From: Acidobacteriota bacterium
GTDB taxonomy: Bacteria > Acidobacteriota > Terriglobia > UBA7540
DNA: 35,508 bases
Reading direction: 5' to 3'
Assembly (NCBI GenBank): GCA_024638215.1
Contig: JAHEKS010000010.1
Span: 1 to 35,508, forward strand
Shown: positions 15,457 through 21,490 of the stretch, piece after piece
Layout of the letters: every line of letters starts with the position of its first letter
Numbering within the stretch: position 1 is the first letter of the stretch
Position numbers and translations under genes: made by a program
Notes under the pieces: generated by a model
What the model saw: the letters and a program-made list of their open reading frames with translations, nothing else
Databases searched by the model: none
Told to the model about the DNA's origin: nothing

Positions 15457-16752
15457 ATGCCCACTAATGTCGTCATGCCCCAAATGGGCGAAAGCATCGC
15501 GGAGGGGACCGTCACCCGCTGGATGAAGAAAGTGGGCGAGCGCGTGGAGCGCGACGAGCCGCTGTTCGAGATTTCCACCGACAAGGTGGACGCCGAGATT
15601 CCTTCGCCCGCCGCCGGCGTGCTAGCCAAAATCCTGGTGCAAGAAAATGAGACGGTCGCCGTGAACACCGTCGTCGCGGTGATTGACGGCGAAGGCGCGG
15701 CGGTGGCCGCTCCCGCTCCGGCCGAAGCCGGTCGCGACGATATAAAAGCCGAAGCTCCTAAAGCTGCTGCTTTCGCAGAGACGCCCCGGCGGGCCGTTCT
15801 CGCTCCGGCACGCGAGCCGGGCGAAAAGGTCCGCTCTTCGCCGCTGGTGCGGCGCATCGCGCGCGAGCACAATGTGGACCTGGCGCAGGTGGCGGGAACC
15901 GGGCTGGGCGGCCGCATCAGCAAGAAGGACATCTACGCCTATCTGGAACACGCCCCGCAAACCAGTGGCGCTTCGCCGGCTCCGGCTGCGGCGCCTGCGG
16001 TTACGATGCCGGCCCAGGCTCCCGCCCGCGCCCCCGTCGCGAAAAAGATGGTCTTCACCGGGCCTACTAACGTTGTCCCCATGACGCCCATGCGCAATCA
16101 GATTGCCGAGCACATGCTGGCCAGCCGGCGCACCTCCGCGCACGTCTCGACCGTCTTCGAGGTCGAATTGACGCGCGTTTACAACCTGCGCGCGCAGCAG
16201 GCGGCGGAGTTCGAGCGGCGCAACGGATTGAAGCTGAGCTACACGCCGTTTTTCGTCCGCGCCGCGGTGGAGGCGATCAAGGAATTCCCCATTGTTAACT
16301 CTTCAGTGGATGGCACAAATATCGTCTATAAGCGCGACGTCAACATCGGCGTGGCGGTGGCGCTCGAAACCGGGCTGATCGTCCCGGTCATCAAGAATGC
16401 GGACGAGAAGAACTTTCTCGGCATCGCGCGCGCCGTGCAGGATCTGGCCGAGCGCGCCCGGTCCAAGCGCCTGAGCGTGGAGGACGTCGAGCGAGGGACG
16501 TTTACCATCACCAACCCGGGCATCTTCGGAAGCCTCTTCGGAACGCCCATCATTCACCAGCCGCAGGTGGCGATTCTCGGCGTGGGCACGATCGAGAAGC
16601 GCCCGGTCGTCCGCGACGACGCCATCGCCATCCGTCCCATGGTTTACCTGATGCTCTCGTTCGACCACCGCATCATTGACGGGGCCGTCGCCGACCAGTT
16701 CATGGCGGCGATAAAATCTCACCTGGAAAATTGGGAAGAGCCGGTGCTGTAA
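15457..16752 (+). CDS. Dihydrolipoamide acyltransferase E2
   Basis: Lipoyl domain EISTDKVDAEIPSPAAG, E3-binding domain SSPLVRRIAREHNVDLAQVAGTGLGGRISKKD, catalytic SFDHRIIDGA. Confidence 0.96.
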   Translation: MPTNVVMPQMGESIAEGTVTRWMKKVGERVERDEPLFEISTDKVDAEIPSPAAGVLAKILVQENETVAVNTVVAVIDGEGAAVAAPAPAEAGRDDIKAEAPKAAAFAETPRRAVLAPAREPGEKVRSSPLVRRIAREHNVDLAQVAGTGLGGRISKKDIYAYLEHAPQTSGASPAPAAAPAVTMPAQAPARAPVAKKMVFTGPTNVVPMTPMRNQIAEHMLASRRTSAHVSTVFEVELTRVYNLRAQQAAEFERRNGLKLSYTPFFVRAAVEAIKEFPIVNSSVDGTNIVYKRDVNIGVAVALETGLIVPVIKNADEKNFLGIARAVQDLAERARSKRLSVEDVERGTFTITNPGIFGSLFGTPIIHQPQVAILGVGTIEKRPVVRDDAIAIRPMVYLMLSFDHRIIDGAVADQFMAAIKSHLENWEEPVL

Positions 16753-16826
16753 GAAGTTGAAAGTCAAAAGTCGAAAGTCAAAGGGGACAGGCTTTCAACT
16801 TTCGACCTTCAACCTTCAACTTTCAG
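16749..16826. repeat. Inverted heptad array between convergent genes: GTAAGAA GTTGAAA GTCAAAA GTCGAAA GTCAAAG / CTTTCAA CTTTCGA CCTTCAA CCTTCAA CTTTCAG
   Basis: Read directly; carries the stop codons of both convergent ORFs. Confidence 0.92.
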
Positions 16827-17214
16827 CCTTTCGAGAGGCAGCCTCGCCATCGCGCCGGAAGGAATCGAGCGTCCAGATGTCTTCGCGCTGGTCGTGGCGG
16901 AGAATGTAGAGATTACCGTCGTCGGCGAGGACTTTGAAGCACTTGTAAGCGGGACCGTACCACTGGTCGAGGACTTCCTTCACCTCGTGCGTGCGCGGAG
17001 CGGGACGATGGGCGGGGTCATCGGGCGTTCCCGGGGCCGCGTCGGACTTTCCGGGGCGGGCGAGGGTGAAGCGAAGCGGCCGCTCGTCGGCCTTGTAGCC
17101 CGAGTAACATTCGACCACAACGGACATGGCCACATCCCCGATCATAACAAATTCGCCTTGCCCCGCCCACGCAAGCTGCGCCTGCACATGGCGCATGAGG
17201 TCACGGAGGAACAC
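16816..17214 (-). CDS. Hypothetical protein (start uncertain; internal ATG candidates at 17148 and 17130)
   Basis: Non-shadow ORF, coherent C-term EVLDQWYGPAYKCFKVLADDGNLYILRHDQREDIWTLDSFRR. Confidence 0.65.
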   Translation of the reverse strand: MFLRDLMRHVQAQLAWAGQGEFVMIGDVAMSVVVECYSGYKADERPLRFTLARPGKSDAAPGTPDDPAHRPAPRTHEVKEVLDQWYGPAYKCFKVLADDGNLYILRHDQREDIWTLDSFRRDGEAASRKAES

Positions 17215-17256
17215 GGAGGCATTTCCAGCGGATCAAACTGAGAAGCAGCGCGAAGG

Positions 17257-18069
17257 TTAAATCACCAACTCGCTGCGAATGGACTGCGCAAAGGCCTCGA
17301 CGCCGGCGAGCGGCTGGATGGAGATCTTTCCTTCTTCGAGGATGCGGTGGCACAGCGCCGCGGGCTCGTCGCCCTGCCCGGGCAAGCCTTCGACGACGGC
17401 GGTGAGGTCAGCGGGTTCTTTGCGCCGGACATGGTCGAGGGTATAGACCAGAACCTTGGCAAGGTCGGAATCGCGCTTCAGCGAGAGGGCGTGGACAAAT
17501 CGCACGTGGCCGTTGGGCTTGCCGGCAATTTCGACGGGCCGATAACCGTAATCGAAGGTGAAGGAGTCGCCCGGGTGCGTCCACTGCGAGGCGGCGATGC
17601 GTTTCTCCAGTTTGTCCCAGACGCCGGCGTGCACCAGGGCGCTGGTGAGCCGCTGTTTGATGCGCAGGCGCGTGTCCTCGCGCTCGACGGCGCCCGAGCG
17701 CGGGCCGATGTAGCGGGCGAAGAGATCTTGAATCTCGCTTTGCGGATCGCGCAGCAGGCAGGCGCGCGGCGGCGCCACTTGCAGCAGGTTCGAGAAGGCG
17801 TTCTGAATATAGCTGACGTACCGGTCCAGGTTCTCGCCGTGCTCGTCAATCTGCTCCTCGAAGTCGGACTGGATTTCGCGCAGGAATTCCAAGTCAGCCT
17901 GCGGGTGGAAGCGCTTGACGCGGCGCCAGTCGTCGGTGAACAGGCAGCCCAGATATTTTTCTCCCGGGCAGTGGAGGAACAGGCCAATGTTCAAGAACTC
18001 GCCGCGCACCAGGTCCGGAACGTATTGGACCAGGAGGAACGCGCATTGCTTGAGAGTTTCGTTGACCAT
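17257..18069 (-). CDS. DUF3037 family protein
   Basis: LVQYVPDLVRGEFLNIGLFLHCPGEKYLG signature; ATG at 18069 22 nt after the kinase stop. Confidence 0.85.
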   Translation of the reverse strand: MVNETLKQCAFLLVQYVPDLVRGEFLNIGLFLHCPGEKYLGCLFTDDWRRVKRFHPQADLEFLREIQSDFEEQIDEHGENLDRYVSYIQNAFSNLLQVAPPRACLLRDPQSEIQDLFARYIGPRSGAVEREDTRLRIKQRLTSALVHAGVWDKLEKRIAASQWTHPGDSFTFDYGYRPVEIAGKPNGHVRFVHALSLKRDSDLAKVLVYTLDHVRRKEPADLTAVVEGLPGQGDEPAALCHRILEEGKISIQPLAGVEAFAQSIRSELVI

Positions 18070-18091
18070 AACGGTCGACCCTTGCCGTCTC

Positions 18092-18949
18092 CTAGCGCCA
18101 GTTGGGAAACGGCCGCAGGTCGCTGTTCTTCGCGTCCACCAAAGCCTGACGCACCCGCCGGCGGCGCTGGTAGAGCCGCTCCAGCAGGCGGTGGATTTCG
18201 CCAGGCTCGTCACCGCACCATTCGTCGGGAATGCCTTCGGCGCACCGCTCGACTTGCCGCGCCTCCAGATTCTCGACGCGGGAAAGATAGGGTTCGAAAG
18301 ATTGAAACCCTCGCACGCTTTCGTAAACCAGCCGGCGGGGATAAAGGCACCGGATGGGGCTGTCGGGAAAATTCCATTCTCCGTCGTTGAAACAGAATCC
18401 GTGATCGATCATCCAGGGGGAGTAGGAGGCGTTTTCATCAGCGGCGGGACGCGTGAAGATCATCTGCCGCCCGTCGCAGTTGCAGGTCCACTTGTCAAAA
18501 ACCAGGGCGCCGGCAAAGACCGGCGCAAGATCTTCGGCGCGGCGCAGCAAGCGGTCGGGCAGGAAATCCACCACCAGGAATTGACCGGGCTGGCCGGGAT
18601 ATCCGGAGCCGAATTGCAGGCCCGCCGCGCACGGGATGTGCCGCGCAGCCATCTCGAATTCCATTTCCGGGTTGCCGGCGATGAGCTCGGGCGCGACTTC
18701 GACGAAAGCCGGCGGGCGAACCGGCAGGTCAAGAAGCAAGGCAAGGCGGCCCGCCAGCATTTCATTGGCGAGGATGCGCGAATGCTGGGGATTGTTGGAA
18801 AACTTGACGACGTAGTAGTCGCCGTCCTGCGCGCGCAGAAGGTGCGGCTGTGAGGCGCCGCGCATCCGCCGGATGAACTCCACGGCGCGGACGACAGGCG
18901 TCTCCGCCGGCTCGTCGGACGGAAGATTTTGGATCGAAGGTGGTCTCAT
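18092..18949 (-). CDS. HipA-family kinase-like protein
   Basis: GDYYVVKFSNNPQHSRILANEMLAGRLA, FDKWTCNCDGRQMIF, MIDHGFCFNDGEWNF. Confidence 0.82.
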   Translation of the reverse strand: MRPPSIQNLPSDEPAETPVVRAVEFIRRMRGASQPHLLRAQDGDYYVVKFSNNPQHSRILANEMLAGRLALLLDLPVRPPAFVEVAPELIAGNPEMEFEMAARHIPCAAGLQFGSGYPGQPGQFLVVDFLPDRLLRRAEDLAPVFAGALVFDKWTCNCDGRQMIFTRPAADENASYSPWMIDHGFCFNDGEWNFPDSPIRCLYPRRLVYESVRGFQSFEPYLSRVENLEARQVERCAEGIPDEWCGDEPGEIHRLLERLYQRRRRVRQALVDAKNSDLRPFPNWR

Positions 18950-19115
18950 GGAGTCCGGGGCGCGCCCTCGGCGAACCTCGCACACGCACAAATACGGCTC
19001 GGCGCGGCCCATGTAGGCTGGGAAGGTTCTTCAGCCGCGCCCTCGGCCCGGCGACCCCTTCGAGACGGCTGGCCGCACGCCAGCCCGTCCCTCCGACGCT
19101 GGGAGGCCTTGCGCA

Positions 19116-19484
19116 CTAGCGCCGACGCGACTTCTTGCGAGCGGAAGATTTCGCTCTCTTCTTCGAAACCTTTCGCACGGGCTTGCGCGCCTTGGCTGCT
19201 TTCTTTTTCGCCGGCTTTTTTTTTGCGGCTTTCTTCGGCGGGGCCGCTTTGGCTTTGCGTGCCGGCTTGCGCGCCGCTGGAGCGGGCCGTGAAACCTCAA
19301 TCGGAGCAGGCGCGGCGGGGGCGACGGCAGGAACCTGCGGCACCTCGGCCTCGTAGGAGACTTCCTCCTCGAGTTCCTCCTCTTCCTCGCTCATGCCTTC
19401 TTCCTCTTCGCGGTAATCCGAAGAGAGCTCGTCTCCGTATTCTTCCAGATCATCGCCCGGACGGTTCTCATCATCAAACGCCAT
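19116..19484 (-). CDS. Bipolar acidic/basic protein with histone-H1-like Lys/Ala/Pro C-terminal tail
   Basis: N-term EEEEGMSEEEEELEEE, C-term PPKKAAKKKPAKKKAAKARKPVRK; AGGAGG ribosome-binding site upstream of ATG 19484. Confidence 0.8.
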   Translation of the reverse strand: MAFDDENRPGDDLEEYGDELSSDYREEEEGMSEEEEELEEEVSYEAEVPQVPAVAPAAPAPIEVSRPAPAARKPARKAKAAPPKKAAKKKPAKKKAAKARKPVRKVSKKRAKSSARKKSRRR

Positions 19485-19574
19485 GCGTTCCTCCTGCCAT
19501 GATGCCTTGTCCAAAATCCACGTCGAGCCCGCTCAATGCTTGCGCGGTCTCAAGGACTCTCGTGCATCGAGGCA

Positions 19575-19603
19575 GATGTATACCACAGAAATCATCTTGT
19601 CAA
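19575..19603 (-). promoter_or_regulatory. Possible promoter of the H1-like gene (TTGACA; -10 TATACA at spacing 15 or TACATC at spacing 17)
   Basis: Minus strand TTGACA at 19603-19598. Confidence 0.45.
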
Positions 19604-19639
19604 GCGCATCCGCGCCGTGGCGATAGGGTAGAACCGGTT

Positions 19640-21490
19640 TCAGTGCGAGGCCTGGACGACCGCGCCTTTGGTGGCTGTGCGGTCCTTCCGAGCCTGCTCG
19701 CTGGAACGCTTCCTTAGGGCCGAAGTATGAGGGCTGGACCTGCGGCGAGCGGTACGGCGGGGCCGGTAGGAGCTTTCGGACACCACATAGACTCGCAGAA
19801 TCCTGCCCGCGATCAGTTTGAAAGATCGCATACGGTTCCAGCGGCGAATCTCATAAGGCGTCACATCGAAACGATCCGCAATGAGCTCCAGCGTATCGCC
19901 CTTGCGGATCCGGTAACGCAGCAGCCGGCGGCGGCCGCGCTCACGAACTCGTACCAGAGAAGATTGACGCCCCTCGGGAAGCGGCAGCACCAGCCGAGCG
20001 CCTTGGGTGAGCGGGTCGTCGGGGTCGAGCTGGTTGGCGTGCACCAGCGCGGTCCTGGTGATGCGGTATTCCTTGGCGATGCTGGCCAGCGTTTCACCGT
20101 CGCCCACCGTGTGCACCCGCCACCAAATGCGCCGGTCAGGGGGAATCGAGGCGATCGCCTGGTTGTAGGTCTGGGCTGTGCCGGCGGGGAGATTCAAGAC
20201 GAAATCCGGGTTGTTGGCGGGTGTCGTCCAGCGCAGCAAAGAAGGATTCAACCGGATCAAATCCTCGACGGGATGGTCAATGAGCTGCGCCACCAGCCGC
20301 AGGTCCGTAGGAGTGGTGACCCCCACCTGATCGGTCGTAATGGGCGGCTGGGGATGAACGTCAAACCCGTACGCCTGCGGCGTTTTCGCGATCAACGCGG
20401 TGGCCAGAATGATCGGCACATAGTTTTCGGTCTCGCGCGGCAAGGCGTGCAGTCTGAGGAGCTGCCAATAATCGGCGTAGCCGGTCCTCTCAATGGCCTT
20501 TTGCACCGTGATGGGACCGCAGTTATAGGCCGCCATCGCCAGATACCAGTCCCCGAATTCCTGGAAAAGGTCGCGGAGATGCTTGGAGGCCGCCTGGGTG
20601 GATTTAACGGGATCCTCACGTTCGTCCACCCAGCGGCTCTTCTTCAATCCGTACTCCCTCGCCCGGCTCAGCATGAGTTGCCAGATCCCCTTAGCTCCGG
20701 CGCGCGAAAGCGCAAAAGGATTGAAGGTGCTTTCGGCGCCCGCCAGGTAAATCAGGTCCTGCGGCAATCCCTCTTTGCGCAGCGCTTCGGAAATCATGGG
20801 CTGGTAAAGGCCCACGTTGGAGAGGACCTTCTCGATGAATCCGTGGCCGCGCCCCTGGAAGTAGGTAATGACGCCGTCCACATAATCGTTCGAGACGAGC
20901 GGCAAGTCGGAATGGACCGAGTGCAGTTGTTCCTGAACGCGCTCCTTGACCCGGGGATCGACGGAAAAGGTAAGGTCGGAGAAGGACTCGATGGGCGCAG
21001 GCTCGTATTTCTGGTCGCTCAGCGCATCGCCGCGCTCCAGGGTTGCCACCTCAAGCGAGTGAATGTTCTCGACCAGTTTGTCGAATTCGGCGCTGAGCCG
21101 GGCGTCGCTCGCGACGCTGAATTTGGATTGGAGAAGGATGGAAAGCGCACGGTCAAAGTCCTGCCGCGCGTTGTCCATGTTGCTCGCCTGATACTCCTTC
21201 ATGCCGGCCGCGTAAAGAACTTCGGCATGAGTCACCAGCATGTCCACCGCGTCAGGCTCATGCGGGGCAGGCTTGGCAGGAGCGGGCGGAGGCGGCGGCG
21301 TGGGCTTCGGCGCCTCGGCAACCTCCGGCTTGGGAGTTGGAGCGGGTGGAGGAGGCGGCTGCACCACGGCCTGGCGCTTTTCACCGCCGCACCCAAAGAG
21401 AAGCAAGATGAGCAGAAGAGGAAAGCAGGATTTGGACCTTGTCGCCAAGCGGGTTCCCCGAGCGCGTACTTGCTCCGACGGGACTTGCAC
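19640..21490 (-). CDS. Lipoprotein membrane-bound lytic murein transglycosylase with LysM domains (MltD-like)
   Basis: Lipobox-like LLLILLLFGCGG, SLT motif AGAESTFNPFALSRAGAKGIWQLM, LysM YRIRKGDTLELIADRF. Confidence 0.92.
   Translation of the reverse strand: MQVPSEQVRARGTRLATRSKSCFPLLLILLLFGCGGEKRQAVVQPPPPPAPTPKPEVAEAPKPTPPPPPAPAKPAPHEPDAVDMLVTHAEVLYAAGMKEYQASNMDNARQDFDRALSILLQSKFSVASDARLSAEFDKLVENIHSLEVATLERGDALSDQKYEPAPIESFSDLTFSVDPRVKERVQEQLHSVHSDLPLVSNDYVDGVITYFQGRGHGFIEKVLSNVGLYQPMISEALRKEGLPQDLIYLAGAESTFNPFALSRAGAKGIWQLMLSRAREYGLKKSRWVDEREDPVKSTQAASKHLRDLFQEFGDWYLAMAAYNCGPITVQKAIERTGYADYWQLLRLHALPRETENYVPIILATALIAKTPQAYGFDVHPQPPITTDQVGVTTPTDLRLVAQLIDHPVEDLIRLNPSLLRWTTPANNPDFVLNLPAGTAQTYNQAIASIPPDRRIWWRVHTVGDGETLASIAKEYRITRTALVHANQLDPDDPLTQGARLVLPLPEGRQSSLVRVRERGRRRLLRYRIRKGDTLELIADRFDVTPYEIRRWNRMRSFKLIAGRILRVYVVSESSYRPRRTARRRSSPHTSALRKRSSEQARKDRTATKGAVVQASH

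Follow-up and report, generated by a model that had tools for sequence, protein, structure and literature searches.

The window analysed here, i.e. the whole stretch of 35,508 nucleotides from an Acidobacteriota bacterium, carries on its minus strand a HipA_2-family kinase gene (18092..18949; Pfam PF20613, 4e-13, over the curated cut-off). It is followed, after an intergenic gap of 22 nt (18070..18091), by a gene on the same strand encoding a HipD-like DUF3037 partner of 270 aa (17257..18069; PF11236, 3e-20, the match spanning residues 13-121 and also exceeding the curated cut-off). Coordinates, Pfam matches and the kinase motifs VVKFSNN, FDKWTCNCDGRQ and IDHGFCFN confirm the two-gene unit described in the earlier note. 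The kinase counts 285 aa from the ATG used in that note and 306 aa from an upstream ATG, a possible alternative start at 19012 (minus strand); since its homology begins at about residue 15-20, the position of the actual start is uncertain. The genome has no second HipA_2 gene. As had also been claimed, DUF3037 occupies the partner position: Pfam analysis of the neighbours, namely the DUF3037 gene and a lysine-rich protein, gave no HipB-like or HTH gene beside the kinase. A homologous DUF3037 gene lies directly after the kinase in 113 of 120 fetched loci, two of the other seven being contig ends, and the pairing is thus not due to chance. The unit shares with hipBA (HipA/HipB of E. coli) the HipA-like kinase fold, but has no HipB-like HTH partner and belongs to the HipA_2 and not the HipA_C family.

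The pair adjoins ordinary metabolic genes, and its host is a soil bacterium. A lytic transglycosylase with LysM (SLT + LysM; 19640..21490, minus strand) is the conserved upstream neighbour, about 2 kb off, and downstream a 2-oxoacid dehydrogenase acyltransferase (E2) gene (15457..16752, plus strand) is the conserved facing neighbour. A small gene of unknown function (16816..17148, or 16816-17214 when taken longer, minus strand) lies downstream of the pair and was found in 14 fetched loci, all of them close to the window's family; it possibly constitutes a third gene of the unit. Directly upstream of the kinase (19116-19514, minus strand) a small lysine/alanine-rich, histone H1-like protein is encoded, and similar lysine-rich proteins occur at the equivalent place in loci L050 and L051. 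No RNA element reached Rfam gathering scores in 16700-19700, and no defence genes were seen near the pair.

Both proteins match a candidate defence system of PADLOC-DB, the kinase as PDC-M66A (2e-15) and the partner as PDC-M66B (3e-13). In the record of Escherichia phage PhiR5_1 (PV340545) two genes annotated as HipA toxin and HipD antitoxin stand in the same order as in the window; the kinase is 27% identical to this HipA (BLASTP E 3e-12, hhalign 99%) and the partner 28% identical to HipD (BLASTP E 2e-11, hhalign 97.5%), the latter in the N-terminal half only. The name HipAD reportedly comes from Brenes & Laub 2025, cited by PMC13092281. A kinase/DUF3037 pair has been found beside Retron-Sda1, where the kinase, and not the retron, was required for defence against phage Bas51, deletion of the kinase abolished defence and removal of DUF3037 was toxic; in the authors' proposal the kinase is a toxin which DUF3037 neutralises (PMC12548924). 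Also, DS-6 was validated and renamed HipAD, a catalytic mutation of its kinase abolished defence, and AlphaFold3 predicted binding of kinase to partner (ipTM 0.76-0.79) and of partner to DNA (0.67) (PMC13092281). In view of the PADLOC matches, these tested relatives and the phage homologues, the kind of system is already known and, judged by homology and architecture, the pair is of the HipAD/PDC-M66 kind. The candidate kinase/partner module of the earlier note was therefore right in kind but not new, being PADLOC candidate PDC-M66, and its description as uncharacterised is out of date, as homologues have been tested in both studies.

With HipAD/DS-6/PDC-M66 the branch to which the window belongs shares both protein families, the kinase-then-partner order, the short spacing and a partner that is about 270 aa long and has DUF3037 as its N-terminal half. 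The novelty lies in the branch itself, which differs in its catalytic loop (Nx(D/N)GRQ, not NxDR...N), in the locus of the window's clade, which is core, single-copy and chromosomal and not prophage- or island-borne, in possessing a kinase-only family and a capsid-cluster version in Acidobacteriaceae, and in a partner with no detectable DUF1829. With the Retron-Sda1 locus (a retron RT with HipA/DUF3037) the window has the kinase/DUF3037 pair in common, but no reverse transcriptase-like gene was found among the adjacent genes scanned. Canonical HipA_2 kinases beside a shorter DUF3037 protein also occur in the same phylum; these pairs share both Pfam families in adjacency, but their loop is intact (NxDRTxRN, with NxDRTx(R/K)N in essentially all those fetched), their DUF3037 ORFs mostly measure 140-200 aa and their distribution is scattered. 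Many Acidobacteriaceae genomes contain this second, canonical type with short DUF3037 and intact loop beside the core type (loci L082-L111).

The catalytic loop of the branch, Nx(D/N)GRQ against the canonical NxDRTxRN, lacks the second, Mg-binding Asn in all of the readable cases (present in 0/112). The window kinase reads N157-C-D159-G-R161-Q162 at this place (codons of N157-C158-D159 at 18473..18481, minus strand, located from alignments and counts). D159 aligns with the HipA catalytic Asp and is Asn in most paired relatives, K49 corresponds to the beta-3 Lys, E63 is present, and D182 is the metal-binding Asp. As to the catalytic residues on which the earlier note had made its proposal depend, the answer is divided: D159 and D182 are kept in the window, but the HipA-type metal-binding Asn is missing throughout the branch, with Gln162 in the window's loop, and the catalytic Asp has become Asn in most paired members. 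In a de-duplicated set covering more families, the catalytic position was Asn in 83 and Asp in 32 of 115 paired members; among partner-less members there were 21 Asp and 2 Asn. The window's own clade has mostly Asp. About seven Asp/Asn changes are required on the kinase tree, whose deep branches are poorly supported; tree conclusions rest on a second tree, since in the first the phage and plasmid sequences formed very long branches. Median dN/dS was 0.132 for Asn-type kinases, 0.115 for Asp-type kinases and 0.11-0.14 for the partner, which denotes purifying selection and indicates that the Asn-type genes are not decaying.

Sequence searches gave no solved relatives at E 10, and an NCBIfam search gave nothing useful. 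The AlphaFold2 model of the kinase (pLDDT 87.9) matched Fam20C/Fam20A, PI4KII-alpha, CtkA, HipA and HipT in Foldseek. For the partner (pLDDT 89.2) the top matches were Can2, Card1, EndoMS and BstEII, all weak (E 8e-3 and worse). Together with the order of strands and helices in the model, these suggest a PD-(D/E)xK-like fold in the C-terminal half. At the expected (D/E)xK position the partner has H193-A-L, so the predicted domain appears to be devoid of the catalytic motif and nuclease-dead-looking. DUF1829 was not found in this half when 21 members were searched at E up to 10.

The kinase is present in 28 of 41 genomes (the window's own and relatives) and in 193 of 250 Terriglobia genomes, nearly always as one copy, and the long DUF3037 in 136 of the 250. 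The pair is conserved beyond close relatives, across families and phyla, as the earlier note had expected of a genuine module, and the best 80 of 528 matches in the genome collection were all acidobacterial. Of 94 loci with sufficient flanking sequence, 48 have the lytic transglycosylase some 2 kb upstream in the orientation of the pair, and 37 of 95 have the E2 gene facing the pair. The recurrence of this arrangement in several Terriglobia families argues for vertical descent. Single-copy occurrence and recurrent fixed neighbours were found in place of the patchy spread, varied sites and defence neighbours of a mobile defence island. Plasmid copies of the pair were also considered and discarded, the single distant match being on a Peribacillus plasmid with no DUF3037 annotated beside it. 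That HipA-family kinase (L213:3977-4753) lies beside glycosyltransferase and dTDP-rhamnose genes and also matches PI3/PI4 kinase (PF00454).

The branch includes a kinase-only and a capsid-cluster sub-branch. In one bacterial family (f5) about 52 sampled genomes carry the kinase and there is one DUF3037 match, located elsewhere; the partner was absent in 17/17 freshly fetched loci, most of which keep the transglycosylase upstream. The persistence of the kinase there is unexpected for an active toxin, given that the antitoxin is absent. In another family (f10), which we infer to be the Acidobacteriaceae, the pair is placed between the large terminase subunit (TerL) and the portal protein, and the portal is followed by a conserved protein p198, a 335-aa capsid-like protein and a head-tail adaptor (phrog_442). 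We would guess from its position and conservation that the 335-aa protein is the capsid. The near-fixed content of the cluster comprises a spike-like protein, TerL, kinase, DUF3037, portal, p198, capsid-like protein and adaptor (L123:754-16111 and, in genome G178, L264:23-1441; also L112-L116, L118-L121, L124, L197, L206 and L207), and parts of it are present in loci L159, L178 and L209 of the other large clade. A single portal copy is present in 46 of the approximately 52 f10 genomes carrying the kinase, and the portal lies within 5 kb of the pair in 45 of 48 portal-bearing Terriglobia genomes, almost all of them Acidobacteriaceae. The TerL-kinase-partner-portal core is intact in several genomes whose remaining cluster genes have been rearranged. 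Genome G279, with upstream host genes as in G178, has kinase and partner only, without phage genes. In this clade Asn at the catalytic position is the rule. The terminase-kinase-portal cluster was also found in 22 of 23 IMG/VR contigs with a branch kinase, for which reason we rejected the notion that these "viral" copies are misassigned host contigs. The genome of the window has no portal gene of this cluster, most other families likewise, and no phage genes of this kind were seen at the transglycosylase-linked loci. Prophages have been described in Acidobacteria (PMC5900883), and defective-prophage-like contigs are shared with Acidobacteriaceae (PMC12142844); our literature search on HipA together with terminase, portal protein and domestication found nothing. 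The Acidobacteriaceae cluster is a candidate gene transfer agent or domesticated prophage, and its linkage to terminase and portal may reflect either capture of the pair by phage or descent from phage.

An ordinary HipAD toxin-antitoxin defence, where infection frees a kinase toxin from its DUF3037 antitoxin and growth stops, would agree with the homology, the gene order, the PADLOC match, the tested relatives and the retention of K49, D159 and D182 in the window. However, the metal-binding Asn is lost branch-wide, the catalytic Asp is Asn in 83/115 paired members, one family has retained the kinase but not DUF3037, and the distribution is single-copy and core at fixed sites with no defence genes seen nearby; we consider this explanation rather unlikely for the branch. 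In particular, a plain mobile toxin-antitoxin module is inadequate in view of the fixed core site, the kinase-only family, the altered loop and the capsid-cluster setting. The old vertical branch, the altered catalytic site and the capsid-gene setting in relatives indicate instead that the pair may have been re-purposed. Our tentative preference, held at somewhat less than even confidence, is that the pair represents a Terriglobia branch of HipAD/PDC-M66 that would serve the cell as a resident switch, regulatory or anti-phage, a domesticated HipAD derivative, and not as a mobile addiction module. This is the likeliest reading overall, and plain toxin-antitoxin defence is possible in the window's Asp-keeping clade.

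The capsid setting may be taken further, with the pair as a pseudokinase-partner regulator of phage-derived capsid production (gene-transfer-agent-like or defective-prophage) and as a solitary leftover where capsid genes are absent, e.g. in the window. The proximity to the portal (5 kb or less in 45/48 portal-bearing genomes of the class), the survival of the TerL-kinase-HipD-portal core when the remaining cluster is rearranged, the Asn-for-Asp rule in that clade and the lineage with the same host flank and the pair only are consistent with it. We nevertheless hold it to be quite unlikely, as the pair is maintained under selection in the window genome and in most other families although these have no such portal, and phage genes of this kind were not seen at the loci linked to the transglycosylase. 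The core distribution, the fixed neighbours, the kinase-only family and the Foldseek matches to PI4K and Fam20 could also fit a housekeeping protein or lipid kinase pathway unrelated to phage, for example of the cell envelope given the lytic transglycosylase; but for both proteins the nearest relatives that have been tested act against phage, a phage cluster surrounds the pair in Acidobacteriaceae, and neighbours vary between families, so that the transglycosylase adjacency may be mere chromosomal heritage. Such a pathway seems very improbable. Finally, it is conceivable, though we regard it as doubtful, that the whole class carries a domesticated HipAD derivative, retained by the host and acting as a metal-site-altered or pseudokinase nucleotide switch, whose Acidobacteriaceae version is built into the capsid cluster and may control packaging or particle production.

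Under the preferred reading of a domesticated resident switch, HipD would use its DUF3037 half to bind the kinase and hold it inactive, while its PD-(D/E)xK-like C-terminal half would bind nucleic acid as a sensing or anchoring part. A phage-related trigger would then disturb the complex and allow the kinase to modify a host target. For the window's clade one may speculate that the kinase still works with D159, D182 and K49, Q162 replacing the metal-binding Asn; in branches where D159 is replaced by Asn, nucleotide-dependent binding is more likely than phosphotransfer. The unit probably spread, or became fixed, together with phage material before it was domesticated, and in the window genome it would thus be a resident switch and not a mobile addiction module.

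Annotation of the Terriglobia branch as "PDC-M66 defence" may be an over-call. Natural variants, in which the catalytic Asp has become Asn or the partner has been lost, indicate which parts of the system are needed. Additionally, the link to a conserved Acidobacteriaceae capsid cluster makes that cluster worth examining for a possible role as gene transfer agent. A newly described anti-phage kinase/partner pair has here become part of the core gene set of a major lineage of soil bacteria.
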